Of a DNA stretch of 43,963 nucleotides, positions 4,927-37,281 are shown in pieces. Positions within the stretch are counted from its first letter, which is position 1. Every line of letters starts with the position of its first letter. This stretch comes from Urechidicola sp. (GTDB taxonomy: Bacteria > Bacteroidota > Bacteroidia > Flavobacteriales > Flavobacteriaceae). The position numbers and the translations under genes were made by a program. A model generated the notes under the pieces. That model searched no databases. It was not told where the DNA came from and worked only from the letters and a program-made list of their open reading frames with translations. Where the stretch lies: NCBI GenBank assembly GCA_028599075.1, contig JAQRMW010000177.1:1-43963 (forward strand), given 5' to 3'.

Positions 4927-7809
4927 TTAAAATCTGAAGTACACATTTAAGTAATAAGATGCACCATAACCATACCAGTATTTTGATCCAAATACAGGAG
5001 TATCTCGCTCTTTATCGTCTTGTAAGACTCTATAGTTTGCGTTACGTGATTGTTCAAAACCACCTGTTTTATATTTTTTATTTAGCACATTACTAACGTT
5101 GGCAAAGAAGCCAATATAATAATCGTCTATTCTCCAAGACTTACCACCAACTATATTTACTAAATGGTAATTGTCAAACTTTTCTTGTGCTAACAGTTCT
5201 CTAGCAACTGCAGGGTCATAATCATTAAATGGTAATCCGTCAGCATCTAATCCAAAGCTCTCTGTTCTTGTAATTGGGGCAACATCAACATAAGCATTTG
5301 AAAAGAAATTGATTGTTGCACCAAACCACCAGTATTCAGGATCGCGGTATTCAAAACCTGCAGAAATTGCACGTTGAGGCCCACCAGCAACATGATAATT
5401 TTTTAGGTTGGTTTGTCCAAAATCAATTCTATCACCTTCATTTATTATATTACCATTAACATCTTCAAATTCACTAATTGCAGATGACGTTGCATATACA
5501 TTCGCATTGTCAGAATACACATAGTCTCCTAAAGCCAAGGCTCCTTTCAATTTAATTCTAGAAGTTACTTGTGCAGAAAGCCCTATTTCCATACCAATAT
5601 TACGCTTGTCGATACCTGTAACAACCTCTTGAATGAAAGCGTTGGATTCATTTTGTTGACCACCAGGTGTTAAAACGGTTATACCATCAGCATAGAAAAA
5701 AGAAATTTCTGTAGCATCAGTAAATTGAGTATAATATCCAGTAAACCTTGCTTGAATCATAGGAGTTCTTAAAATATAACTCGCATCAAAAGAGGCAATT
5801 GTTTCGCTCTTTAATTCAGAAACGACACCATTTTCAATATCAACAACTACATCATTATTTTCTCTTGAGTTTGAGAATGAATTACGAATAGATGGCGCCT
5901 TAGTTCTATATCCTAGATTTGCAGTAAATAAATGGCGGCCAGATAATTTATAGGTTAACCCTCCTTTAGCTCCGTAATTAGTAAAGTCTAATTTTTCGCT
6001 TTTACCAAAAGAGTTATCTTCGAAACGACCATTTTTATACAAGCCATTTCTTTGATATGTGGTATTTGATAATTGACCACCTACATAAAAATCGATTTTA
6101 TCATAAGAGAATTGGGCTTGGGCAAACCCGTCAATAATATTTGCATCGATTTCGAAATTATATTTAAAGGTATCTCCAACACCAACAATACGGTTTCTGT
6201 TATTTAAATCGTTTTGAGCTTCGTCAACAGAATCAGAAAATGAATCAGCATCTAAAAAGCCTGTTCCTCCCAAAAGGTCAAGCATATTAGCAAAATTCTT
6301 AGATTTTAAATTGCGATAAGTTATTGCTGCATTGATATCAATATTTTCATTCAATTCTGTTCTAAATATTGTATTAGCCGTGAATTGATTGTCATCATTT
6401 CTATCTTCATACAAGGCGTAAACTGAATTTCTTCCTTGTGTGCCAGCACTTAGGTTGGCAGAGTATAATGAGTTCCAGTCAATTTGACCATCGTTTTGAA
6501 ATTTTTGTTGAGCTAAATAAGCTTGTTCATAATCAGGATTATCTACATCGCGTAAATGATAACTTGGTAATTTTTGATAATAAGTTGGGTCTGGGTTAGA
6601 ACCACCACCAACAATAAATTCAGTTCCAGAAGTATCAGTCATCAAAGTAGTACCACCATAATCTAAACGACTGTTTCCTATTTTTCCAAATTGGTAAGCA
6701 ACGTTTGTGTTTAAGGTTGTTTTCTCATTGATATCCCAAAAATGGTTTAACATTAAAACAGGTTCTTCGATATTTCGTTCTCTAGAGTTTCTTTTATTAG
6801 AATCTTGTTCTCCCCAATAAGAGTTGTATCTCGTATTTTTTAAATCATAGACCTCTTGTGTATTTGGAGATGACTTACCCCTTCTATTTGGCGTATAAAA
6901 ACCAGTAAAGTTTAAACTGTGATTGTCATTAATTACCTTTTCTACAGAAACTGCAAAAGAATTTGCATCATATAAAGAAGCATCATTATACCCTTCAGTA
7001 CCAAAACGTCTAGCGGCTAAAAATGAATATGCCCATCCTTTTTCGTTTAAACCAGAACTGTAACTTGCCATTACTCTACCAGTATAAGACCTGTTAGATG
7101 AAGCATAAGACACTCTACCTCCTTGTCTGTATTCAGAAGCTCTCATGATTACATTATTAGACCCACCAACACCACCAAAAGTGTATTCTGAGGCGGCTAA
7201 ACCATTGGTTAAAACTTGATTCCTCATCAAGTCATTCATACCACCCCAGTTACCCCATTGAGGGCGGCCGTTGTAGATTTTGTTCATTTCGATTCCGTTG
7301 ATTAACAATTTTCCATTTTCAGAATTGTAACCACGTGCTCTAAAAAAAGTAGCGCTAAATTCGTAAGCAGCAGTACTTAAAAATATATCTCTAGACGCTT
7401 GTAGTAAACCTGCAGTGTTATCTGCAGCTCCTTCATCAGCACTCAACTCGTCTTCAGAAAGAGAGATGACACTTAAATCGGTTTGGTCTAAAGCAACTTC
7501 ATATAAAAGTATGCTTCCTAAATCTACTTCGCCACCTTCACTAATGGTGATAGGAAAATTCTGAGTTTCATATCCTTCTAGACTCAACTCTAAAAGTTGA
7601 TTACCCGCAGGAGCATTTTGAATCAGAAAATTACCTTCAGCATCTGTTAGCTGTTCAATTGTGGTTCCTATCAAAGTTACTTTCACGCTAGCCAATGGGG
7701 CTGCATTATAACTATCAGAAACACTTCCTTTAACAATACCCAATGATTGTGCGTTCGTAACAGATACGGTCGCCAAAGCAATGAGTATTGAAGTAATAAT
7801 TTTTCTCAT
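4927..7809 (-). CDS. TonB-dependent receptor with CarboxypepD_reg-like domain
   Basis: A 960-residue outer-membrane receptor. The signal peptide ends near TNAQ (residue 21). An N-terminal carboxypeptidase-regulatory-like beta-sandwich (GIVKGSVSDSYNAAPLASVK, about 24-110) precedes a plug domain (FRARGYNSENGKLLINGIEM, about 155-230) and a long 22-strand-type barrel ending in aromatic YLNVYFRF. It is the first gene of an operon with the DUF5689 lipoprotein, an arrangement that parallels SusC/SusD pairs although the partner is not SusD. A TATTTTTG -7 element lies 46 bases upstream. It is divergent from the EEP genes across a 147-bp intergenic region. The substrate cannot be read from sequence. 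Confidence 0.93.
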   Translation of the reverse strand: MRKIITSILIALATVSVTNAQSLGIVKGSVSDSYNAAPLASVKVTLIGTTIEQLTDAEGNFLIQNAPAGNQLLELSLEGYETQNFPITISEGGEVDLGSILLYEVALDQTDLSVISLSEDELSADEGAADNTAGLLQASRDIFLSTAAYEFSATFFRARGYNSENGKLLINGIEMNKIYNGRPQWGNWGGMNDLMRNQVLTNGLAASEYTFGGVGGSNNVIMRASEYRQGGRVSYASSNRSYTGRVMASYSSGLNEKGWAYSFLAARRFGTEGYNDASLYDANSFAVSVEKVINDNHSLNFTGFYTPNRRGKSSPNTQEVYDLKNTRYNSYWGEQDSNKRNSRERNIEEPVLMLNHFWDINEKTTLNTNVAYQFGKIGNSRLDYGGTTLMTDTSGTEFIVGGGSNPDPTYYQKLPSYHLRDVDNPDYEQAYLAQQKFQNDGQIDWNSLYSANLSAGTQGRNSVYALYEDRNDDNQFTANTIFRTELNENIDINAAITYRNLKSKNFANMLDLLGGTGFLDADSFSDSVDEAQNDLNNRNRIVGVGDTFKYNFEIDANIIDGFAQAQFSYDKIDFYVGGQLSNTTYQRNGLYKNGRFEDNSFGKSEKLDFTNYGAKGGLTYKLSGRHLFTANLGYRTKAPSIRNSFSNSRENNDVVVDIENGVVSELKSETIASFDASYILRTPMIQARFTGYYTQFTDATEISFFYADGITVLTPGGQQNESNAFIQEVVTGIDKRNIGMEIGLSAQVTSRIKLKGALALGDYVYSDNANVYATSSAISEFEDVNGNIINEGDRIDFGQTNLKNYHVAGGPQRAISAGFEYRDPEYWWFGATINFFSNAYVDVAPITRTESFGLDADGLPFNDYDPAVARELLAQEKFDNYHLVNIVGGKSWRIDDYYIGFFANVSNVLNKKYKTGGFEQSRNANYRVLQDDKERDTPVFGSKYWYGYGASYYLNVYFRF

Positions 7810-24808: not shown

Positions 24809-27800
24809 TTACTCAATAATAATCTTTTGAGTAGATTGAACATTATTAGCTGTAAATTTTACAATGTAAACTCCACTTGCTAAATTCAAGGACAGTTGTT
24901 GATTTGCACCTGTAGCAAAATCAAGATTAGAAGCGTGAACTTCTCTACCATTCACATCAAAAATATTTAAAGCACCTACTCTAACTTCAGAAGTAGGAGC
25001 AATGGTAATTTCACCATTTGATACTGTTGGGTAAATTTTAATCAAATTATTTTGAGCGAACTCATCAACAGATAATCCAGAAGCAGTATTGTCAAAAGTA
25101 CCAGTAAACATACCTCTACCATAGGTAGATGCTAAAACTGTATAATCAGAAGTTCTCATATCAAAACTTGTAACTTTTACATCTTTCATTCCATCTTGTG
25201 ATTGATACCAAGTTGGAGTTGCTGCTGAAAAATTATTGGTTGCCCAAACACCTAATTCAGTACCAACAATAACTTCGTCATAATTAAGTGGATTAGCTAA
25301 AATAGCTCTAGTTGGCATATCTGGCAAATTACCTTCTTTATTGCTCCACGTTGCACCTCCATCATCGCTAAAAAAGACACTTGTTACACCATAATTATAA
25401 AAAGTAACATAAATATCATTTTCTGTTTCTCCTAATTCTATACAAGAAATGCTTCCTAAAAAATCAGGACCAGAAATATCTGACCATGATGGTGAAGCAT
25501 TTGCATTGGTTAACTTTAATAATTCACCTCCAGAAGTACCAACAAACAACGTTGTCGTAGTAAAAGTAGATGGTTTAAAAGCTGTTGGGGTTGATGTTAA
25601 TAATGCATTAGTTAAGGCAGCCGGAGTAGCGGAGCTTGTTCCTAATGTATACCTGTTTATTTGACCACTACCATCAGTATATAAGATATTATTATCGCTG
25701 TCTAAGGCTGCAGGATTTATAAATTGTCCTGAACCTGTATCACTAACAATTGTATAGGAAGCCCCTCCCGTATTATAATTGTGGTAAGAAAATGAATTGT
25801 AAACATAAGATGCAATCATATAACCTCTATCTTTATCAATAAAGACATAAGCTCCATCTCCACCTCTGATTTCATTAGAACCTCCTATACCAGCAGAAGC
25901 ACTATTAATTAATTGCGAGCCATTATCTTGTGCTCCAGCCAAGAATTTTTCATCACCTACTTCTGGACCAATCGCGCCCTTATAAAACTGTAAGGTGTTG
26001 TAATTTTTATTTCTTGACGAGATTAATCCTCCTGAATTAATTAAATAATAAACCCCTCCATCATTACAAACCACTCCTTTTGTTGGGTCAGATGGGTCAA
26101 AAACAAGTGTGTGTTGATCAGCATGAACTAATGAAACGTTTAACCCAGCTAAAGCGTTGTTGTTAGACCATTTAGAAATTTGAGACCAATTGGCCGCAGA
26201 ATCGTTGGTTCTATATAAATCAATTCCTCCAACATAAACTTTTCCATCATCTGTTGGGTCAACCTCTAGTAATAAATCATAAAAAGCTTGACCTCTTGTA
26301 AAGTCATCTGATGGTTGGCCTGTATCAACAGGTGTTGGTTGTGTTAAGCTTGTTTCGTTTGCGAATTCATCCGTGGTTTTCATCAACTCTAAAGGAGCCC
26401 CAGCAGTTAACTCTGCAAGAACGTATACTGTACCAGAACTGGTTCCTGACACAGCAATTTGAGTTCTATCAGCATTAGGAATCGTTTGTCTTAATGAAAA
26501 ATTGATACCATCAGATGAAGATAAAATTCTACCTCCACCATCACCGTATGTACTACTATTTGTAGTTGATACCCATACTTTATTATCCGCTGCTATTTCA
26601 ATATCATTTGGCATATATGGGTTATCTCTCCCTATTTCTAAATCTATTTGGGTCCAATTTGCACCACCATCAGATGATCTAAACAATCCAAATTCATCAA
26701 TTCCAAAACCAGTTACCGGAGTTTCGCCAGGAGCACCTAGAGAATATCTAAAAGCAGAATCTGATGCACCTACAAAAACTTCAGAAACACCTTCACCTAC
26801 ATCACGTATAGCGATATCATTAATATGAGAAATACCTGTAACAAATGTACCTGTACCTCCAACAACAGATACGTTAACTGTATTGCTATTTCCTAACTCG
26901 GTTAAAATACCAGCACCATCTGCTTGTGAAATCATAAATGAAGGGATGGTTACGGTATCCCCAACTGCACCGGCTCCCATAGATATTGGAGCGCCAGCAA
27001 CATTATTTATTACAATAACAGCTACAGCACCTGCATTTTCAGCGTTTAATACTTTGGTTCCAAATTCACAATTTCCTCTTTCTATAACAGCGATATTACC
27101 ATTAATTGCACCTGCATTATTAAGGGCCGTACACGCTTCTGTTGGCACACCCGATGCGGTACTTGCTAAAACTAAATTTCCACTAAATGAACCTATTGCA
27201 GGACCAAAACCAGCAGGCACAAAATCATAATCGCCTGCAATACTACCTGGTGAGTTTACAGTTAGTACACTAAGTGTACCTGGAGTAACTCCTGTTTGTC
27301 CACCAAAAACTTGTGTCCAATTGGCTCCGCCATCAGTAGATTTCCATACACCATTCCCATTTACATCTCCAAAAACATACGATTCTCCAGTACCAACATA
27401 AAAGGTTTGAGTATCATTTGGGTCGTAAGCAATACAACTTATCCCTAAATTTTGAGGGATGTTAACTTCTGCCCAAGCTGAAGCTCCATCTGTAATATCG
27501 TCATTAACCCATAAACCTCCACTTACACCACCGGCAAAAACACGTTTGTTGGTTCCGTCATTAGGGTCAAACATAATGGCTCTTGTTCTACCACCTACAT
27601 TGTCTGGTCCTCTTTCTTCCCAACTATTAGAATTTTCTCCTGGAACTCTGCTAAATTGATCGTATAAAGTTTCTTGTAAAGCCAATACTCTTTCTGGATG
27701 AGGTCTTCCAGTCGAAGGATCCATCGTTAATTCAAACATTTGTTCAAAATACTTATTTGGAGGAATTCCTTTTGCTTTTCTTTCAGCCTTAGTAAGTTTT

Positions 27801-27952
27801 AATGTTTCTTTAAAAGGGCTATTTTCTAAATGAGAAGCATGTTTTTCTCTTAAAAGTTCTATTTCACTTTTAGAATTAAAATTGGTTTGAAGCACCAAGC
27901 CTAAAACTATTAACGTTGCAATACTACTTGCAATAAGTAATTTTTTTTTCAT
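24809..27952 (-). CDS. Large exported beta-propeller (VPS10/sortilin-like) protein with PA domain and T9SS sorting signal
   Basis: A 1047-residue protein with an N-terminal signal/hydrophobic segment (1-24). Repeated sialidase/BNR-type Asp-box motifs (STDGGANWTQV ~205, SSDGGANWTQI, SDDGGATWSN) indicate a beta-propeller like VPS10/sortilin. A protease-associated (PA) domain is inserted at about 225-370 (IAVIERGNCEFGTKVLNAENAGAVAVIVIN). The last ~75 residues are a type A T9SS sorting domain (IKIYPTVSNGEITI to VQSTQKIIIE), so it is exported through type IX secretion and probably held on or released from the surface. Its ligand is unknown. Confidence 0.9.
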   Translation of the reverse strand: MKKKLLIASSIATLIVLGLVLQTNFNSKSEIELLREKHASHLENSPFKETLKLTKAERKAKGIPPNKYFEQMFELTMDPSTGRPHPERVLALQETLYDQFSRVPGENSNSWEERGPDNVGGRTRAIMFDPNDGTNKRVFAGGVSGGLWVNDDITDGASAWAEVNIPQNLGISCIAYDPNDTQTFYVGTGESYVFGDVNGNGVWKSTDGGANWTQVFGGQTGVTPGTLSVLTVNSPGSIAGDYDFVPAGFGPAIGSFSGNLVLASTASGVPTEACTALNNAGAINGNIAVIERGNCEFGTKVLNAENAGAVAVIVINNVAGAPISMGAGAVGDTVTIPSFMISQADGAGILTELGNSNTVNVSVVGGTGTFVTGISHINDIAIRDVGEGVSEVFVGASDSAFRYSLGAPGETPVTGFGIDEFGLFRSSDGGANWTQIDLEIGRDNPYMPNDIEIAADNKVWVSTTNSSTYGDGGGRILSSSDGINFSLRQTIPNADRTQIAVSGTSSGTVYVLAELTAGAPLELMKTTDEFANETSLTQPTPVDTGQPSDDFTRGQAFYDLLLEVDPTDDGKVYVGGIDLYRTNDSAANWSQISKWSNNNALAGLNVSLVHADQHTLVFDPSDPTKGVVCNDGGVYYLINSGGLISSRNKNYNTLQFYKGAIGPEVGDEKFLAGAQDNGSQLINSASAGIGGSNEIRGGDGAYVFIDKDRGYMIASYVYNSFSYHNYNTGGASYTIVSDTGSGQFINPAALDSDNNILYTDGSGQINRYTLGTSSATPAALTNALLTSTPTAFKPSTFTTTTLFVGTSGGELLKLTNANASPSWSDISGPDFLGSISCIELGETENDIYVTFYNYGVTSVFFSDDGGATWSNKEGNLPDMPTRAILANPLNYDEVIVGTELGVWATNNFSAATPTWYQSQDGMKDVKVTSFDMRTSDYTVLASTYGRGMFTGTFDNTASGLSVDEFAQNNLIKIYPTVSNGEITIAPTSEVRVGALNIFDVNGREVHASNLDFATGANQQLSLNLASGVYIVKFTANNVQSTQKIIIE

Positions 27953-28033: not shown

Positions 28034-29374
28034 TTAAAACACTTCACCCATAATTTTTTTGTGAATTAGGATTGCATAACTATCAGACATGATAGAAACA
28101 AAACTACACGCAATACTGATTCGGTCATATAAATTGTCTTTTGTAATTTGATAATTATCTGGCAACAACCTAATTACCAATTTATCATAATTAGAAGCTG
28201 AACCGTTATATGTATTATTAATTGCCGAAATAAATACGTTTAGTAAGTCTGACAATACACGGTAACCAGCTACCTCTTTTTCAACAACCTCTTTACTTTT
28301 ATAAATACGTTCAATACTTATTTTTATGATGTCGTTAATCTGCGCCTCATATTTACACTTATCTAACAATGAATTGTTATAATCTCCATTTAAGATAGTA
28401 GCTTCATTTTCTAAAAAGATAGTGGCAGCCTCGTTTATTAAATTACCAATAGCCAAAGCCCTTAGGTAACTGACTCTATCCTTTTTAGATTTTAACTGAT
28501 AGTATTTTTCTGTGTTGATGTTGTCTCTCACCAAATTAATGAGATACTCTAAAGCAAATTCTTCTTCTATCAAGCCAAGGTTGATACCATCTTCAAAATC
28601 GATTATGGTATAACAAATATCATCTGCAGCTTCTACTAAATACGCTAGAGGGTGTCTGTTAAAAGCAAGATGTTCATCAGCTCTAAGTCGAGGTAGCCCT
28701 AAAGTTTCAACCACATCTTTAAATGCATTAACCTCTGATTGAAACACACCATATTTTTTATCTACAATATGACTACTTGGTTTTTTAGGAAGCGATTCTT
28801 TTGGGTATTTCATAAAAGTTCCCAAGGTTGCATATGATAATCGCAAACCTCCTTCAACACCTTCTCTATTCTCTGTCAAAATTTTGAATCCGTTCGCATT
28901 TCCTTCAAAGTCTATTAAGTCTTGCCACTGTTTATCGGTCAAATCCTTTTTAAAATGCTGTCCATTACCAGACTTAAAATATTCGCCTATGGCTTTTTCT
29001 CCAGAATGTCCAAAAGGAGGGTTTCCAATATCATGTGCAAGTGCCGCTGCTGCTACAATAGCTCCAAAATCATTGGCTTGATATCCCTTTTCTTTAAGGT
29101 CTGGATATTTCTCAATCAATTTTTTTCCTACAATTCTACCTAAAGATCTCGCCACCACGCTTACTTCTAAACTATGAGTTAATCGAGTGTGTACAAAGTC
29201 GGTTTTAGACAAGGGTACTACTTGAGTTTTGTCTTGCAAGCTTCTAAAAGAATCAGAAAAAATAATACGATCATAATCAACTTCAAAGCCCAAACGAGTC
29301 TCGTCTTGGTCTTTTCTTAATCTGGTTTCTGTGTCGCCAAAGCGTTTTAAAGAGAGGAGTTGTTCCCAATTCAT
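28034..29374 (-). CDS. dgt: dGTPase (deoxyguanosinetriphosphate triphosphohydrolase)
   Basis: A 446-residue HD-domain enzyme hydrolysing dGTP (or other dNTPs) to the nucleoside and triphosphate. HD motifs: THSLEVSVVARSLG and AALAHDIGNPPFGHSGE (catalytic HD); the start has RLRKDQDETRLGFEVDYDRIIFSDSFRSLQDKTQV. The ATG at 29374 (MNWEQLLSLKRFG) is chosen. An open in-frame extension to 29455 adds 27 residues unlike the family and overlaps the divergent promoter region. Confidence 0.93.
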   Translation of the reverse strand: MNWEQLLSLKRFGDTETRLRKDQDETRLGFEVDYDRIIFSDSFRSLQDKTQVVPLSKTDFVHTRLTHSLEVSVVARSLGRIVGKKLIEKYPDLKEKGYQANDFGAIVAAAALAHDIGNPPFGHSGEKAIGEYFKSGNGQHFKKDLTDKQWQDLIDFEGNANGFKILTENREGVEGGLRLSYATLGTFMKYPKESLPKKPSSHIVDKKYGVFQSEVNAFKDVVETLGLPRLRADEHLAFNRHPLAYLVEAADDICYTIIDFEDGINLGLIEEEFALEYLINLVRDNINTEKYYQLKSKKDRVSYLRALAIGNLINEAATIFLENEATILNGDYNNSLLDKCKYEAQINDIIKISIERIYKSKEVVEKEVAGYRVLSDLLNVFISAINNTYNGSASNYDKLVIRLLPDNYQITKDNLYDRISIACSFVSIMSDSYAILIHKKIMGEVF

Positions 29375-29475
29375 GGTATAAAATTTTGTGTTGGCAAGAT
29401 ACAGTTTTCGAGGAAATAAAAATAGGCCTCTCTTAACATAAAAGAAACATAACAATCACATTGATTTAATAAGCC

Positions 29476-29510
29476 CTTAACATTCACTTAACTTCTGCAC
29501 AAGTTATTTG
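29476..29510 (+). promoter_or_regulatory. Putative Pho-box promoter of phosphate-locus TBDR
   Basis: CTTAAC (29476-29481), N5, CTTAAC (29487-29492), N10, GTTATTTG (29503-29510). The last is a near match to the TAnnTTTG -7 element and lies 25 bases before the ATG. Direct repeats with an 11-base period sit where a -33 element would be, the usual position for an OmpR/PhoB-type activator. The same arrangement, with the same spacings, is found at 33697-33731. Confidence 0.65.
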
Positions 29511-29535
29511 TAATATAAAATTAAGAGAAAAACTA

Positions 29536-32361
29536 ATGATAAAAAATAGATTACTCATACTCCTTTTTATTTTGACTTGTGGAAGTGTCTTTTCACAAAA
29601 AGGAATCATTTCTGGGCAAACCTTAGATGCCGAAATGAACAGTGAGCCATTACCTTTTGCCAATGTTTTTATTAAAGGAACAACCACAGGTGCCACCACA
29701 GATTTTGACGGGAATTTTTCACTAAATGTTGATGAGGGTATCGTTACTTTGGTGATTAGTTTTGTTGGTTACCAAACGATTGAAATAGAAAACATCAATG
29801 TTGTAGCTGGTGAAACGGTTGAATTGAATCCAATCATATTAAAAGCTGATGAAGGAGAATCTTTAGACGAAGTTGCTGTAACCGCTTCTACAAAAAAAGA
29901 ATCGGTCCAATCTTTATTGACCGAACAGAAAAAGGCAGTGGAATTAAAAACAGCTATCGGTGCTGATGAGTTGTCAGAAAAAAGTGTGAGTAATGCATCG
30001 GGTGCAGTCACAAAAATTTCAGGAGTTTCAAAAGAAGAAGGCTCAAACAATGTATATGTACGTGGTTTGGGAGATCGTTATTTAAATACCACATTTAACG
30101 GATTGACATTACCATCAAATAGTATTGATAAGAAAAACATCAACCTCGATTTATTTACTACAGATATTATTGAAAATGTGTCGATAAGCAAATCATACTC
30201 GCCACATTTCTTTGCAGACTTTTCAGCGGGGAATGTAAATATCAATTCAAAAGAATATACAGGCAATGGATTTTTTGATATTTCATTAAAATCAGAAATG
30301 AATACTAATGCTATTGGTAGTGATTTTGTGAAAAGTGAAGGAACTGGTCGTTTTGGATTTTATAATCGCTACGATAACAACCCGTTTGCGGTTGTTTTAT
30401 CTCACGGTGTTGACCCGGTGAGTGCTGGGACTCCGATTGCTTATTCAATTAGCGGAGCAGCAGGAAAATCTTTTAATATAGGTGATGATTCTAGATTAAG
30501 TTTATTTATTTCTGCATCGTTCGACAATAATTACACCTTATATAATGGTAGCGAAATTGACTATACCAATGATTATAACAAGCGTTTTCCAAATGTAGAT
30601 CGATATAAATATAGTACTAACACAACTTTATTGGGTAGTGCAATTTATCGATTTAACAGCGAGCATAAAATATCTTTCAATTCTTTATTTATAAATAGCT
30701 CTGGTGATGAAGTTGGTTTTTACGGAACACAAGGTGATGGGTTTTATAGAGATTCAAGATCGTTTGTTGATACTGATCGCGGGTTTTATCAAATGAATGT
30801 ACAGTTTAATCAAGATTTGATTTTTGTAAATCAATTGTTGGGAAATCATACACTTACCGAAAAGATAAAATTAGATTGGGGCATTGGATATAACAATGTG
30901 TATTCTCATGAACCTGATAGAAAAAGAATTTCTATCGAAGATTATTTTTACGCTTTGGATGATGACCTAAATACACATCCTGTTTTGTTGACCAATAACT
31001 CTTTTGACAATCAGCGCTATTTTCAAAAAGTGATAGACGATGAATTAAATGGTCGTTTAAAAATAAGCTATCAAGTTACTGAACATACAAAAATAAATAT
31101 TGGATATACGGGTAGAACAAAATCAAGAGAGTTTGAAAACATTCGTTACGGATACAAAAATTTTGATGACAGCTTAATTGTTGACCCAAGAAATTTGAAC
31201 AGTATATTTAATGGTAATAATGTATTGATAGATAGTTTGGTACAGACGGATGTATTTAGACCAATCCCGGGAATGAGTCCAACAAATAGACCTGGTTTAC
31301 CAGAAAACACTTATACAGGAAACATGGATGCACACGGAGGATTTGTATCTGCTGAATTCAATCTAAATGATAAATTGCTGCTAGTTCCCGGTTTTAGAGC
31401 CGAGTATTTTTCGCAAGAAATAAATTATGATGTTATCAATTTAGTAAACAATCCAAGCTCATTAAAGGTAACCGAAGAGTTTTATTTGCCAACATTAAAT
31501 GTTCGGTATGCTTTAAATGATTCTCAAAATTTAAGAGCGTCTGTAAGCAAAACAATATCGACTCCAGAGTTTAAAGAAATGGCTCCATATGTATATGAAG
31601 GGGTTACAGAAAGAGTCGGAGGTAATCCAGATTTATTAGGTTGGCAAGATGGTGTTTCATATATCAATGTAAAAGATGTTTCTTATTCTGACATTCTAAA
31701 TTTTGATTTAAAATACGAATGGTTTATGGGTAACGGGCAAATAGTTTCATTTGCTGGTTTTGCCAAACAAATAAAAAACCCAGTAAACTTAGTTGTGGCA
31801 AATGATGCTACAGGTACACAACGCTATTTTAGAACAGGTGACAAAGCAAGTGTTTACGGTTTAGAGTTAGAGCTTAGAAAACATATTTTGTTTAATGCTG
31901 ATGAACAAGCAATTTTAACCACAGGTTTTAATGCAACCTATATGCATACCGAACAAGACTTATTCAGTACAATTAGCGGTACATATAGTACAAGTTTTGC
32001 AAGGTCAAAAGATCAATTAGAAGGAGCTTCTCCTTTTTTATTGAATGCTGATTTAAGCTACAATGCAACTTTTGGAAAATCAATTAAATCAACTTTTAAT
32101 GTGGTTGCTAATTATTATTCTGATAGAATTTACGCTTTAGGATCTGGTCAATTAGGAAACAAAATTGAAAAAGGATTTGCCGCTTTAGATTTTATATGGA
32201 AAAATCGTATTGGCGATAATATAGAACTCAATTTCACTGCAAAAAACTTGTTAAACCCTGATTTACAAATTATCAGAGAAATACAAAACAATGATGAAAT
32301 ACTATTAAGTAACTATAAAAGAGGGATAAACCTCGGATTACAATTCAATTATAAATTTTAA
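29536..32361 (+). CDS. TonB-dependent receptor of phosphate locus
   Basis: A 941-residue outer-membrane receptor. Signal peptide to about CGSVFSQ (residue 21), an N-terminal carboxypeptidase-regulatory-like domain (ISGQTLDAEMNSEPLPFANV, about 25-110), a plug domain (VYVRGLGDRYLNTTFNGL, about 172-189), then a barrel ending LGLQFNYKF. It is co-transcribed with a lipoprotein 29 bases downstream and lies in a locus with a phosphate-selective porin and a PiT transporter. With the Pho-box-like promoter this suggests uptake of a phosphorus-containing compound under phosphate limitation (inference). Divergent from dgt. Confidence 0.92.
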   Translation: MIKNRLLILLFILTCGSVFSQKGIISGQTLDAEMNSEPLPFANVFIKGTTTGATTDFDGNFSLNVDEGIVTLVISFVGYQTIEIENINVVAGETVELNPIILKADEGESLDEVAVTASTKKESVQSLLTEQKKAVELKTAIGADELSEKSVSNASGAVTKISGVSKEEGSNNVYVRGLGDRYLNTTFNGLTLPSNSIDKKNINLDLFTTDIIENVSISKSYSPHFFADFSAGNVNINSKEYTGNGFFDISLKSEMNTNAIGSDFVKSEGTGRFGFYNRYDNNPFAVVLSHGVDPVSAGTPIAYSISGAAGKSFNIGDDSRLSLFISASFDNNYTLYNGSEIDYTNDYNKRFPNVDRYKYSTNTTLLGSAIYRFNSEHKISFNSLFINSSGDEVGFYGTQGDGFYRDSRSFVDTDRGFYQMNVQFNQDLIFVNQLLGNHTLTEKIKLDWGIGYNNVYSHEPDRKRISIEDYFYALDDDLNTHPVLLTNNSFDNQRYFQKVIDDELNGRLKISYQVTEHTKINIGYTGRTKSREFENIRYGYKNFDDSLIVDPRNLNSIFNGNNVLIDSLVQTDVFRPIPGMSPTNRPGLPENTYTGNMDAHGGFVSAEFNLNDKLLLVPGFRAEYFSQEINYDVINLVNNPSSLKVTEEFYLPTLNVRYALNDSQNLRASVSKTISTPEFKEMAPYVYEGVTERVGGNPDLLGWQDGVSYINVKDVSYSDILNFDLKYEWFMGNGQIVSFAGFAKQIKNPVNLVVANDATGTQRYFRTGDKASVYGLELELRKHILFNADEQAILTTGFNATYMHTEQDLFSTISGTYSTSFARSKDQLEGASPFLLNADLSYNATFGKSIKSTFNVVANYYSDRIYALGSGQLGNKIEKGFAALDFIWKNRIGDNIELNFTAKNLLNPDLQIIREIQNNDEILLSNYKRGINLGLQFNYKF

Positions 32362-32390
32362 ACTAAACAAAATTATTAAAATCAAAAAAA

Positions 32391-33587
32391 ATGAAAACAA
32401 CTTTATTAACATTACTAATTTTTATTGCAACATCTTTTTTATTAATTTCTTGTGGTGATGATGACACTGCTGATATTATTATTTATGATAACAGTGTAGT
32501 AAACAATGGTGGAGGAGACACTCCAACAAGTCAACAAATCAACCTATCTGGAACTTATGTAGACGATTTAACATTAGATGCAAACAACTCATATATTGTT
32601 AATGGTCCTTTGGTTATGACAGAGGGTACTACATTGACGATTCCTGCAGGAATGACCATTAGAGCATTAGCAGCAGGGTCTGATGTTTATGTTGCTATTG
32701 CACAAGGCGCAAAAATTATCGCAAACGGAACTGCTGATATGCCTATTGTATTTACATCAAATGCAAGCTCGCCACAAGCTGGTGATTGGGGAGGGTTAAT
32801 TCTTTTAGGAAAAGCACCTATTAATTCTGTAACTGGAGGTAACGAAACAGCAACATCTGAAATTGGGTCATTGCCTTATGGTGGTAACAACCCAAATGAT
32901 GATTCTGGGGTGTTGAGATATATCAGAGTAGAATATTCTGGTGGTAAAGCTGATGGGCAATCAGAAAATAATGGTTTTTCATTTTACGGTGTTGGTGATG
33001 CAACGGTGGTACAATATGTAGAAATGTTTGAAGGATTGGATGATGGTTTTGAGTTTTTTGGAGGCACCGTAAATGTTGATTTTTTGGTAGCGGTAAATGC
33101 TCAAGATGATTCAATTGACTGGACTGAAGGCTATATAGGAACAATTACAAATGCACACGTTATTCACGGACCAGAACATGATAAAGGAATTGAAGGTGAT
33201 GGATACAATACTGATATAGGGAATAATTCTAACCCAGTATTTTGGTCTCACCCAACAATTGAAAATTTAACAATTATTGGTTTGGGTTCTGATACAGGTA
33301 ATGAGGCTATCCGCTTAAGAGCGGGAACAAGAGTAACTATTACAAATGCTTATATCGAAGGGTTTAACGAAGGGTTTGATATGGATGGTGATGACACCAA
33401 TAACCCAACGGGTGAAGGAGTTTTGTTAGACGAAACAAATGCAGTTAACATTTCTTTTGTTGATGTAAACATTAAGCTAAAAAATGATACCGGAGTCTCT
33501 TTTACAGAAATAGATTTTATCCAAGGAGATGGAAATGGTAACGGAACCGATTTTGCTTTTTGGGGAGCACGTTGGACTGTTGAATAA
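32391..33587 (+). CDS. Surface lipoprotein, probable beta-helix, partner of the phosphate-locus TBDR
   Basis: A 398-residue protein. Signal peptide ends in lipobox LLISC (Cys21), followed by GDDD, fitting a Bacteroidota surface-export signal. The mature part is rich in Gly, Asn and Asp with repeated short strands ([43 protein letters not shown]), suggesting a right-handed beta-helix or similar solenoid. No catalytic motif is recognised. It is 29 bases after the TBDR and closed by a terminator, so it probably binds the receptor's substrate at the surface (inference). Similar proteins are often annotated only as hypothetical. Confidence 0.8.
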
Positions 33588-33651
33588 TAAAATTTGGATT
33601 AAGAATCATTTCATATAATTATTAGTTTTTGTCGACTATATTTTGAAATGT

Positions 33652-33677
33652 AAAGGCTGCCAATGGCAGCCTTTTTT
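33652..33677 (+). terminator. Rho-independent terminator of TBDR-lipoprotein operon
   Basis: AAAGGCTGCCA and TGGCAGCCTTT pair around a one-base centre, followed by further T residues, 65 bases past the lipoprotein stop and just before the porin promoter. Confidence 0.8.
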
Positions 33678-33696
33678 ATTGTTATAATAACCTCAA

Positions 33697-33731
33697 CTTA
33701 ACATTAACTTAACATTGAGGTTGGTTATTTG
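33697..33731 (+). promoter_or_regulatory. Putative Pho-box promoter of porin gene
   Basis: CTTAAC (33697-33702), N5, CTTAAC (33708-33713), N10, GTTATTTG (33724-33731), then 24 bases to the ATG. Inside it TTAACA-N5-TTAACA is an exact match to the Bacillus PhoP box form. Spacings are identical to 29476-29510. An 8-base inverted repeat (AACCTCAA at 33689-33696, TTGAGGTT at 33715-33722) overlaps and flanks it. Confidence 0.68.
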
Positions 33732-33755
33732 CAGCGACAAAAACTAGTACATTTT

Positions 33756-34952
33756 ATGAAACTCTATAAAGCACTTACACTTGTGTTTGCATTCTCATTT
33801 TTCTTTGTAAATGCACAGTCTAAAAAATTAAGTGAAACAAAATTTGGAAAAGGCATGGTTAACCATGTGGCAAAGGACAGCTCATGGAGCGTAAAATTTG
33901 CACCAAGAATACAAATGTTATCATCTACTAATTGGAATTATGATGGAGACCAATTTGGTAAGGCAAACACAAGTTTTTTAATTAGAAGGGCAAGATTTAA
34001 ATTTAGTGGTTTTGCATTCTCACCAAAACTTCAATACAAACTAGAAATAGGATTGTCAAACAAAGATATTTCTGGCGGAACAATATATACTGCTAATTCT
34101 TCTAGGTATATTTTAGACGCTGTTGTTAAGTGGAATTTTTACAAAAATTTTGTGCTATGGGCAGGACAAACTAAACTACCCGGTAACAGAGAACGAGTTA
34201 TTTCATCTGCAAACCTTCAATTGGTAGACCGTTCATTATTAAATGCCAATTTTAATATTGATCGTGATTTAGGGCTCCAATTAAGACATCATATTAATTT
34301 GACGGATTCTTTTGTGATTAGAGAAATTTTCTCTGTTGCTCAAGGTGAAGGCAGAAATGTAGTTACAGGAAATTTAGGAGGACATCAATATACGGGGCGA
34401 TTAGAATTTTTGCCTTTTGGTACTTTTAAAAGTAAAGGAGACTATCTTGGGAGTTCATTACAGAGAGAACCCAAACCAAAATTAGCTGTTGGTATTTCTT
34501 ATGATTTCAATGACAATGCGGTAAGAAACTCAAGCAATAGAGGTTTGTATATGGAAACAGATACAGGCTTACATGAAACAGATATTACAACCCTATTTAT
34601 AGATGCTATGTTTAAATATAAAGGATTTTCTTTTATGGCAGAATATGCAAATAGAGAAGCCGATGATCCGATTGTTAGAAATTCAGACGGCTCAGAAACA
34701 GGTGTTATTGCAAGAGAAGGAAATGGTATAAATTTACAATCAGGTTATTTATTCCCTACGAATTGGGAAGTAACAGGTAGGTTTTCTAGAATAGATGTTA
34801 AAAGTAAAGACATAAGCAATCAATATACAATAGGAGTATCAAAATATATTGTTGGACACAAATTAAAAGTACAATCAGATTTAAGTTATTTAGCCTTAGG
34901 TAGTACTAGTGAAAGCTTAATGTATAGACTACAATTAGAAGTTCACTTTTAA
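33756..34952 (+). CDS. Phosphate-selective porin O/P family protein
   Basis: A 398-residue outer-membrane barrel of the OprP/OprO family, trimeric anion channels specific for phosphate or polyphosphate in Pseudomonas. A signal peptide (cut near FVNAQ) is followed by AWSVKFAPRIQM-like first strands (SSWSVKFAPRIQMLSS), FLIRRARFKFSGFAFSPKLQYK typical of the family in its FxIRRAR motif, and a C-terminal strand YRLQLEVHF ending in Phe. The ATG at 33756 is chosen; an in-frame TTG at 33729 falls inside the -7 element. It has its own Pho-box-like promoter and is 70 bases before the PiT gene. Confidence 0.9.
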   Translation: MKLYKALTLVFAFSFFFVNAQSKKLSETKFGKGMVNHVAKDSSWSVKFAPRIQMLSSTNWNYDGDQFGKANTSFLIRRARFKFSGFAFSPKLQYKLEIGLSNKDISGGTIYTANSSRYILDAVVKWNFYKNFVLWAGQTKLPGNRERVISSANLQLVDRSLLNANFNIDRDLGLQLRHHINLTDSFVIREIFSVAQGEGRNVVTGNLGGHQYTGRLEFLPFGTFKSKGDYLGSSLQREPKPKLAVGISYDFNDNAVRNSSNRGLYMETDTGLHETDITTLFIDAMFKYKGFSFMAEYANREADDPIVRNSDGSETGVIAREGNGINLQSGYLFPTNWEVTGRFSRIDVKSKDISNQYTIGVSKYIVGHKLKVQSDLSYLALGSTSESLMYRLQLEVHF

Positions 34953-35022: not shown

Positions 35023-37281
35023 ATGGATAATGCTTACTTACTAATGATTATTGCCCTTGCAGTTTTGGCTATCGCCGATTTGATAGTGGGGGTGAGTAAC
35101 GATGCGGTAAATTTTTTAAACTCAGCCATTGGATCTAAGGCAATTTCGTTTAGAACCATTTTGATTGTTGCCAGCTTGGGTATTGCCTTTGGAGCAATTT
35201 TTTCTAGCGGTATGATGGAAGTTGCTAGAAAAGGAATCTTTGTTCCGGCAATGTTTTCGTTCGATAATATCATGGTCATATTTATGGCAGTAATGATAAC
35301 AGACATTCTCCTCCTCGACTTTTTCAATACAATAGGGATGCCAACTTCAACAACGGTATCCATCGTTTTTGAATTATTAGGCGCTGCAGTTGCTATGGCA
35401 ATTATTAAAATTGGAGCAAGCACTGGAGATTTTTCTGAATTATACAACTACATAAACACAACAAAAGCAACCCAAATTATTTTTGGAATTCTATTATCTG
35501 TTGTTGTTGCGTTTTCTGTCGGAGCGTTCGTACAATATGTTTCTAGGTTATTAATGACTTACAATTTCGAGAGAAAGCCTAAGTGGGTGGGTGCATTATT
35601 TGGAGGTGTTGCATTAACCGCGATGGTTTATTTTATTTTAATGAAAGGAATAAAAGGTGCAGAAATTGCTAAAGAAAGTTTTGATATTATTGGAGGCTTA
35701 ACCATTAGAGACTTTTTAGAGTCTTACGTTCTATCAATCGTAGCCGTCAGCTTTGTAATTTGGTCTGCTTTATCATATATTTTTATAGCTGTTCTAAAGA
35801 CAAATATCTACAAATTAATTATTATAGTAGGCACATTTGCATTAGCACTGGCATTTGCAGGAAATGACTTGGTAAACTTTATTGGTGTTCCAATTGCGGC
35901 ATGGCAATCATACGAAGCTTGGGTAGGAACTGGAATTCCTGCAACAGAATTTATGATGGATGTACTAGGTAAAAAAGTACCAACACCTACATTACTATTA
36001 TTTGTTGCTGGACTCATAATGGTATTGACATTATGGTTTTCAAAAAAGGCGCGATATGTTACACAAACAGAAATTAATTTATCTCGCGAAGGAGAGGCAA
36101 AAGAACGTTTTCAACCAAACTTTTTATCAAGAGGACTGGTAAGAGGTGCTATGTTAAGCTCAAAATATCTATCTCTAATAACGCCTAAAACTGTTCAGGC
36201 AAAAGTTGAAAAACAATTTGAAAAACCCGTTATTGAATTAATGCAAGGTAAGACACATGAATTACCAGCATTTGATATGGTACGTGCCGCTGTTAACTTA
36301 ATGGTTGCAGGAGTGTTGATTTCAATTGCAACTTCTTATAAGTTACCACTTTCTACAACCTATGTAACTTTTATGGTTGCAATGGGGACTTCATTAGCCG
36401 ATAGAGCTTGGGGAAGTGAAAGTGCAGTATATAGAGTTGCGGGTGTATTGAATGTAATTGGTGGTTGGTTCGGAACAGCAATTACTGCTTTTATTGCTGC
36501 TGCAATTGCCGCCTTTTTAATCAATTGGAACAAAGAAGTAATGATTCCAATTTTATTATTGATTGCCGTTATTTTGTTGGTTCGTAATTCTATCAATCAT
36601 CTTAAAAGGTCTAAAGAGACCAAAGCTGAAGATCGCTTAATTAGAGCTGAAAGTAAATCTGTACAAGGCGTAATTGAAGAAAGTGCAGATACTATTTCTA
36701 AGGTATTAAAACGTGTAAGTAAGATTAACGAAATTACTATCAACGGATTGATTAATCAAGATTTAGCATTACTTAAAAAAGGGAGAAAAACAGTTGTAAA
36801 ATTAGAAGATGAAATAGAAGATTTACAAAACAACATCTTCTATTTTATAAAAAACTTAGATGAAACCTCTGTTAATGCAAGTACATTTTACATGCAGGTA
36901 ATGGGAGATTTACAAGATATTGCTCAGTCTGTTGGGTTTATATCTAAAGTGAGTCATAAGCACATTAACAACAATCATAAAGCACTTAAGGTAAATCAAT
37001 CAAAAGAATTAAAACAAATTGATAAAGAATTAGGTGACTTATTTACAAAAACAAGAGCCGCTTTTGATTTACGTGCTTTTGATCAAATATCTATTTTATT
37101 AGAAGAAAAACAAGGTTTATTAAAGACAGTTTCTGAGTTTGCTCAAGTTCAGGTAGAAAGAACAAGAACAACAGAGTCGAGCCCAAAAAATACAACTTTA
37201 TACTTTAGTATTTTATTAGAAACTGAAGATTTAATTAAAGCTACAATTAGCTTGTTGGAGTTGTATGCTGCTAAGAAATAG
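35023..37281 (+). CDS. PiT-family inorganic phosphate transporter with PhoU-like C-terminus
   Basis: A 752-residue inner-membrane transporter moving phosphate with H+, Na+ or a metal ion. The two family signature repeats appear as SNDAVN (25-30) and GNDLVN (~280), each followed by hydrophobic helices; a large loop separates the transmembrane halves. After about residue 530 comes a soluble, helical, Lys/Glu-rich ~220-residue region resembling DUF47/PhoU-type regulators (KSVQGVIEESADTISKVLKRVSKINE). This long PiT form is typical of Bacteroidota. It completes the outer-to-inner membrane phosphate path with the upstream porin. Confidence 0.93.
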   Translation: MDNAYLLMIIALAVLAIADLIVGVSNDAVNFLNSAIGSKAISFRTILIVASLGIAFGAIFSSGMMEVARKGIFVPAMFSFDNIMVIFMAVMITDILLLDFFNTIGMPTSTTVSIVFELLGAAVAMAIIKIGASTGDFSELYNYINTTKATQIIFGILLSVVVAFSVGAFVQYVSRLLMTYNFERKPKWVGALFGGVALTAMVYFILMKGIKGAEIAKESFDIIGGLTIRDFLESYVLSIVAVSFVIWSALSYIFIAVLKTNIYKLIIIVGTFALALAFAGNDLVNFIGVPIAAWQSYEAWVGTGIPATEFMMDVLGKKVPTPTLLLFVAGLIMVLTLWFSKKARYVTQTEINLSREGEAKERFQPNFLSRGLVRGAMLSSKYLSLITPKTVQAKVEKQFEKPVIELMQGKTHELPAFDMVRAAVNLMVAGVLISIATSYKLPLSTTYVTFMVAMGTSLADRAWGSESAVYRVAGVLNVIGGWFGTAITAFIAAAIAAFLINWNKEVMIPILLLIAVILLVRNSINHLKRSKETKAEDRLIRAESKSVQGVIEESADTISKVLKRVSKINEITINGLINQDLALLKKGRKTVVKLEDEIEDLQNNIFYFIKNLDETSVNASTFYMQVMGDLQDIAQSVGFISKVSHKHINNNHKALKVNQSKELKQIDKELGDLFTKTRAAFDLRAFDQISILLEEKQGLLKTVSEFAQVQVERTRTTESSPKNTTLYFSILLETEDLIKATISLLELYAAKK

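Follow-up and report, generated by a model that had tools for sequence, protein, structure and literature searches.

A probable Pho box and a conserved, predicted small RNA at an outer-membrane phosphate locus of Urechidicola sp.

The Pho box of Bacillus subtilis PhoP consists of TTAACA direct repeats with an 11-bp spacing, and that of the Escherichia coli phoA promoter (its sequence confirmed by a 100% match to annotated phoA) consists of 11-bp direct repeats of the half-site CTGTCAT, which replace the upstream promoter element, with the second half-site starting 17 nt before the -10. Here we describe a promoter element that is very likely of this kind in Urechidicola sp. (Flavobacteriaceae), located upstream of a TonB-dependent receptor (TBDR) gene and of a porin gene in a stretch of 43,963 nt (positions 1-43,963 of contig JAQRMW010000177.1, assembly GCA_028599075.1; hereafter the window, to whose positions all coordinates refer unless stated otherwise). 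Its repeats and their spacing resemble those of B. subtilis, in a different phylum and promoter. Its arrangement resembles that of phoA, but the half-site is TTAAC(A)/CTTTACA, up to six half-sites are present, and the downstream element is the TTTG-type -7 element of Bacteroidota.

Pho boxes are known to differ between species (reviewed in PMC4415409). In the same phylum, PhoB of Bacteroides fragilis binds the pst promoter (pstC), as shown for a 512-bp fragment only and with no box defined (PMC3547664). For Riemerella anatipestifer, which belongs to the same order Flavobacteriales, the accessible part of a DNA affinity purification sequencing (DAP-seq) study gives a TTTAACA core for PhoP, similar to the repeats found here, with several shifts validated by electrophoretic mobility shift assay; it differs in its 583 peaks, in a resemblance of the motif to that of E. 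coli ArcA, and in that no tandem phase or assignment to pst or porin genes is reported in that part (PMC9603813). In Flavobacterium johnsoniae, the phoBR cluster (PUSIV) contains a TonB-dependent transporter (TBDT), the lipoprotein FII and the porin OprP, the same kinds of gene as at the Urechidicola locus, and no box or RNA has been described there (PMC8115612). The two differ in their neighbours: these genes lie beside phoBR in F. johnsoniae, whereas the Urechidicola locus adjoins dgt and has its phoBR on a separate contig.

The repeat element at the receptor and porin promoters

The initial annotation of this stretch had read a pattern shared by the two promoters, with two half-sites in each, as a probable flavobacterial Pho box. 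The pattern itself proved exact: CTTAAC-N5-CTTAAC-N10-GTTATTTG is present at 29476-29510 and at 33697-33731, both on the + strand and with 0 mismatches, and the start codons at 29536 and 33756 lie 25 and 24 nt past GTTATTTG, respectively, while dinucleotide shuffles gave a chance expectation of 0.01 matches in the window at <=3 mismatches. Even in the whole 3.36-Mb assembly, these were the only two sites with <3 mismatches when the G of GTTATTTG was relaxed. The half-sites had been undercounted, since the array of the TBDR promoter (29432..29492, +) comprises six of them in 11-bp phase (CTTAAC at 29432, AGAAAC at 29443, AATCAC at 29454, TTTAAT at 29465, and CTTAAC at 29476 and 29487), and the box of the porin promoter (33686..33713, +) comprises three in the same phase (AATAAC at 33686, and CTTAAC at 33697 and 33708). 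These six-repeat and three-repeat sets also gave the top scores for phased repeats in the window.

The element GTTATTTG was assigned as the -7 (sigma-A) element of the TBDR promoter (29503..29510, +), where it starts 16 nt past the start of the last half-site, and of the porin promoter (33724..33731, +). Counted to TTATTTG (TTNTTTG), the distance from the start of the last half-site is fixed at 17 nt, identical to that in E. coli phoA. Given that the flavobacterial -7 box TAnnTTTG is located at -12 to -5 (PMC9723704), the repeats would cover the -33 region, and the +1 of the porin transcript is predicted at 33736.

To place the element in relatives, 80 loci from other Flavobacteriaceae and related metagenome-assembled genomes, returned by one scan, were compared; labels such as L020 and L236 denote loci of relatives. 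Their TBDR orthologues are 51-86% identical, and dgt, TBDR, lipoprotein, porin and PiT genes remain clustered in many of them. The repeats together with the TTTG element recur at both the TBDR and the porin promoters. Across 75 related TBDR promoters, TTWAC-like half-sites were found at -44 (95%), -33 (88%), -22 (25%), -11 (84%), 0 (100%) and +11 (93%), the -22 position being taken by a TATGAC-like variant. A matrix trained on TBDR promoters recognized 37 of 46 porin promoters at >12 bits and 0 of 230 shuffles, and matched 0 of 78 lipoprotein and 0 of 65 dgt upstream regions. When both strands of the 80 loci (2.8 Mb) were searched, 118 of the 167 sites >10 bits were TBDR or porin promoters, and the remaining ones were mostly elsewhere within the cassette. 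A relaxed motif search of the Urechidicola genome itself returned 6 sites, against 4 for a reversed control, and we therefore claim no further regulon members in this genome.

Link to phosphate genes and to a PhoB-like regulator

The second promoter precedes a porin of the Porin_O_P family (33756..34952, +; PF07396, E 1e-12), and the gene that follows, probably co-transcribed with it, encodes a PiT-type phosphate transporter (PHO4; 35023..37281, +). The first precedes the TBDR (29536..32361, +), which consists of CarboxypepD_reg, plug and barrel domains and has TonB-Xanth-Caul as its best NCBIfam match, below cut-off, and then a lipoprotein (32391..33587, +) without a Pfam or NCBIfam match, which in position and kind corresponds to lipoprotein FII of F. 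johnsoniae. Because the TBDT and FII of that species are strongly induced by depletion of inorganic phosphate (Pi) (PMC8115612), the earlier proposal that the TBDR and lipoprotein belong to a phosphate-starvation regulon gains support.

In related loci the porin gene opens porin-pstS-pstC-pstA-pstB-phoU-PiT operons, whose pst genes were confirmed over cut-off, and the cassette of the window equals this arrangement minus the pst block. In a sample of 149 Flavobacteriaceae genomes, used for the exact-pattern, PstS and PhoU counts, true PstS genes were present in only about 12. The motif occurs at >20 bits at 8 of these 12 PstS loci, in three of the eight directly upstream of pstS, compared with 0 of 18 LysR-type false matches (Fisher p 8e-5); half of the PF12849 matches fetched were LysR-like, and these served as negatives. 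An unbiased scan of the 149 genomes yielded 49 sites with the exact pattern, and the pattern in reverse yielded 11. Among 31 sites inspected, 22 precede TBDR, lipoprotein or porin homologues as judged by BLASTP (for L162, a TBDR case, the site may be intragenic), one is upstream of pstS itself and another is upstream of the gene that precedes pstS. Furthermore, the upstream regions of pst operons across the class Bacteroidia contain 20 TTWAC pairs at 11-bp spacing, whereas other spacings average 3.5, so that the description of the box as flavobacterial holds for Flavobacteriaceae and is too narrow in scope.

A PhoB-like regulator with a neighbouring PhoR/PnpS-like kinase is encoded on contig C232 of this genome. 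In seven relatives (L037, L043, L053, L074, L080, L162 and L168/L236), a phoB orthologue (72-77% identical) stands divergent from the TBDR gene, and in L236 the box array is located between the two.

Several observations weigh against a Pho box. The PhoB candidate scores under the cut-offs of its two best families, TIGR02154 (207 vs 296 bits) and NF053854 (197 vs 270 bits). The 11-bp spacing is also mildly over-represented in background intergenic DNA from the 80 loci (124 vs a mean of 77). Upstream regions of PhoX (PF05787) carried no convincing box, the PF05787 matches being mostly partial, distant relatives, so that the enrichment anticipated at pst, porin and phoX genes was seen at the first two and not at the third. 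Pi depletion did not raise the OprP mRNA of F. johnsoniae (log2FC -1.3, p 0.25; PMC8115612). In R. anatipestifer, a phoPR mutant showed an 8-fold increase of pstS mRNA, and a simple role in phosphate is questioned by the authors of that study (PMC5399024).

The last observation, together with the ArcA-like motif of R. anatipestifer PhoP, would suit another reading, namely that the repeats are bound by a different OmpR-family regulator, for example an ArcA-like protein or one of the two other regulators examined in this genome, both RprY-like, with the phosphate link being incidental. Direct repeats at 11 bp are indeed common to OmpR-family proteins, but the sites concentrate upstream of pstS, of porin-pst operons and of the gene types induced at low Pi, and the regulator adjoining them is the PhoB-like one, which makes this reading improbable. 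That the two promoters merely share a sigma-A promoter or arose by a recent promoter duplication, without a dedicated regulator, would account for their common -7 element, which is general in flavobacteria, but is already contradicted by the half-sites conserved and phased to -44 in 75 TBDR promoters, by the boxes at independent genes such as pstS and by the pst upstream regions of Bacteroidia, with the unmatched lipoprotein and dgt upstream regions also speaking against it, and hardly deserves further weight.

Given the enrichment at PstS loci, the 149-genome scan, the porin-pst synteny, the adjacency of phoB and the published induction in F. johnsoniae, the proposal that the shared element is a Pho box is well supported. 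Judged from sequence, it is very likely one, with PhoB predicted to control both TBDR-lipoprotein and porin-PiT transcription and a small RNA adding a further layer.

A predicted conserved small RNA between the lipoprotein and porin genes

Structured small RNAs conserved among flavobacteria are known from the Rfp family of Flavobacterium psychrophilum, in which Rfp18 also has mRNA targets, predicted as metalloproteases and an adhesin, in contrast to the porin considered here (PMC9723704). An uncatalogued, conserved predicted RNA of about 70 nt, which lay outside the initial annotation, is present at 33607..33677 (+), 20 nt past the lipoprotein stop. It consists of a hairpin (33607-33650, +), with the seed TAGTTTTTGTCG at 33623-33634, and an intrinsic terminator (33652-33677, +). 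The seed is a 12-nt perfect complement of CGACAAAAACTA at 33735..33746 (+), a target that begins at about +1 of the porin mRNA, so that the loop of the RNA is complementary to nucleotides +1 to about +11 of that mRNA. In most porin loci of the relatives, 12-15 nt of complementarity connect the lipoprotein-porin spacer with the porin mRNA start, compared with about 8 nt in shuffles.

Further comparison supports the RNA and its target as a pair. The terminator stem shows compensatory changes at 7 of 7 pairs. Seed and target pair in 92.7% of cells, against <=58% when slid, and four of five measures were reached in 0 of 500 shuffles, significance that the shuffle p-values overstate because the relatives are not independent. 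The first set of RNAs was picked by the seed string, a criterion relaxed in later searches, and the invariance of the core in that set is thus partly by construction. In L020 and L276 the core is changed on both sides (TTTTAGTC/GACTAAAA), and in L018 and L189 the RNA is absent and the targets are degenerate. A covariance model recovered the RNA in 57 of 120 Flavobacteriaceae genomes, almost always as a single copy, and a search of Rfam returned nothing at gathering scores, the nearby matches all being far below. On the other side, the stability of the seed hairpin by itself is unexceptional (mean z -0.9), and RNAalifold on a MAFFT alignment supported the terminator stem only, with no statistically strong support for the seed hairpin. 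From these patterns, the beginning of the porin message appears to be a base-pairing target of the RNA.

In most relatives the RNA has its own promoter, with half-sites 30, 41 and 52 nt before TTTG (in 40, 40 and 45 of 53, respectively) that share their phase with the other Pho boxes. No such promoter is evident in the window, where the RNA directly follows the lipoprotein stop, as it does in several relatives, and given this 20-nt distance the TBDR-lipoprotein transcript probably carries it at its 3' end.

As to the effect of the pairing, a translation block is our first guess, since the paired region extends from the predicted +1 to about 10 nt before the porin start codon, and we lean towards repression of the porin, the sign of control being deduced from position. 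A flat OprP mRNA, as in F. johnsoniae, would fit such RNA-mediated control of the porin. The opposite sign is the strongest competitor: by pairing from the predicted +1 onwards, the RNA could shield the 5' end of the mRNA and raise porin expression, and both RNA and target stand under Pho boxes. This seems to us a real but somewhat less likely possibility, as the pairing reaches to within the usual ribosome footprint and the OprP mRNA of F. johnsoniae does not rise under Pi depletion. It is rather unlikely that the element acts in cis, either through a stem formed over a long range within a read-through transcript or as an inverted repeat in the DNA. Seed and target do lie only 97-190 nt apart on the same strand in most genomes, as such an element would have it, but an intrinsic terminator and the porin promoter stand between them, the RNA has a Pho-phased promoter of its own in most relatives, and L021 and L272 retain the pair with its two members 2.85 and 3.17 kb apart, a separation that argues for action in trans.

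Between the lipoprotein and porin genes, relatives also have a short reading frame on the minus strand, about 110-140 aa in length (6149-6508 (-) of L192 and equivalents), which is missing in the window. Some genera (L234, L235 and L239) have at the corresponding position a different lipoprotein (33-36% identical) in front of a distant TBDR, with the order of the two genes swapped and the box unchanged, an arrangement that is a cassette replacement. On the other side of the receptor, and divergent from it, lies the conserved neighbour dgt (dGTP triphosphohydrolase; 28034..29374, -). Motif matches of 12-18 bits face dgt (minus strand) in L025, L059, L062, L066, L079, L081 and L084, and by this criterion the Pho regulon of some relatives may include the dGTPase. 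The adjoining gene (24809-27952, -) encodes a 1047-aa protein with a PA domain, a T9SS sorting tail and partial similarity to M36 metallopeptidases.

Phosphate sensing, proposed mechanism and significance

No PstS, PstC or PhoU was detectable in the Urechidicola genome, of which the assembly is 95% complete, and PhoU is present in only 12 of the 149 sampled genomes. The C-terminal end of the PiT protein (36604..37278, +; last 225 residues) was predicted by AlphaFold2 with a pLDDT of 88.8, and its top 11 PDB matches in Foldseek are all PhoU or PhoU-like, the best-superposing chain being 4q25_B (TM 0.73, about 11% identity). The resemblance is one of fold only, as neither BLASTP nor sequence profiles linked this C-terminus to PhoU, and PF01895 has no match in this genome; in two relatives, PF01895 matches lie inside reading frames of 724 and 765 aa. 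The phosphate signal could be transmitted by such a fusion of PiT and PhoU.

We propose that, under phosphate starvation, the OmpR-family regulator PhoB, for which the protein on C232 is the best candidate, would bind the tandem 11-bp half-sites (consensus nTTAACA/CTTTACA). As these cover the -33 region and keep a constant 17-nt distance to a weak -7 element, PhoB would replace the -33 contact and recruit RNA polymerase to the TBDR-lipoprotein promoter, where six half-sites could hold up to three PhoB dimers, and to the porin-PiT promoter with its three half-sites. The small RNA at the 3' end of the TBDR-lipoprotein transcript would expose its loop, pair with the initial ~11 nt of the porin message and, most likely, limit porin translation during high receptor expression. 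For the family as a whole, we somewhat favour a joint system in which PhoB, acting through tandem TTAAC arrays, drives both outer-membrane phosphate genes and a small RNA, which is either free-standing or part of the receptor transcript at its 3' end and finds its pairing partner in the exact 5' end of the porin mRNA. This system would operate mostly without Pst or PhoU, with the PhoU role fused to PiT.

This arrangement raises the question of how phosphate is sensed by PhoR in genomes that lack Pst and PhoU and in which PiT has a fused PhoU fold. The RNA, indicative of a small RNA family that is linked to phosphate, has a covarying target and is not represented in Rfam, is the part most deserving of follow-up. 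The Pho box is ordinary in kind, and, to judge from the open literature searched, its sequence definition and reach are new for the phylum; that literature offered no more than one DAP-seq core and a PhoB shift at the level of a fragment. With a concrete and searchable definition of the box for Bacteroidota, the phosphate regulons of marine, soil and gut members thus become predictable.

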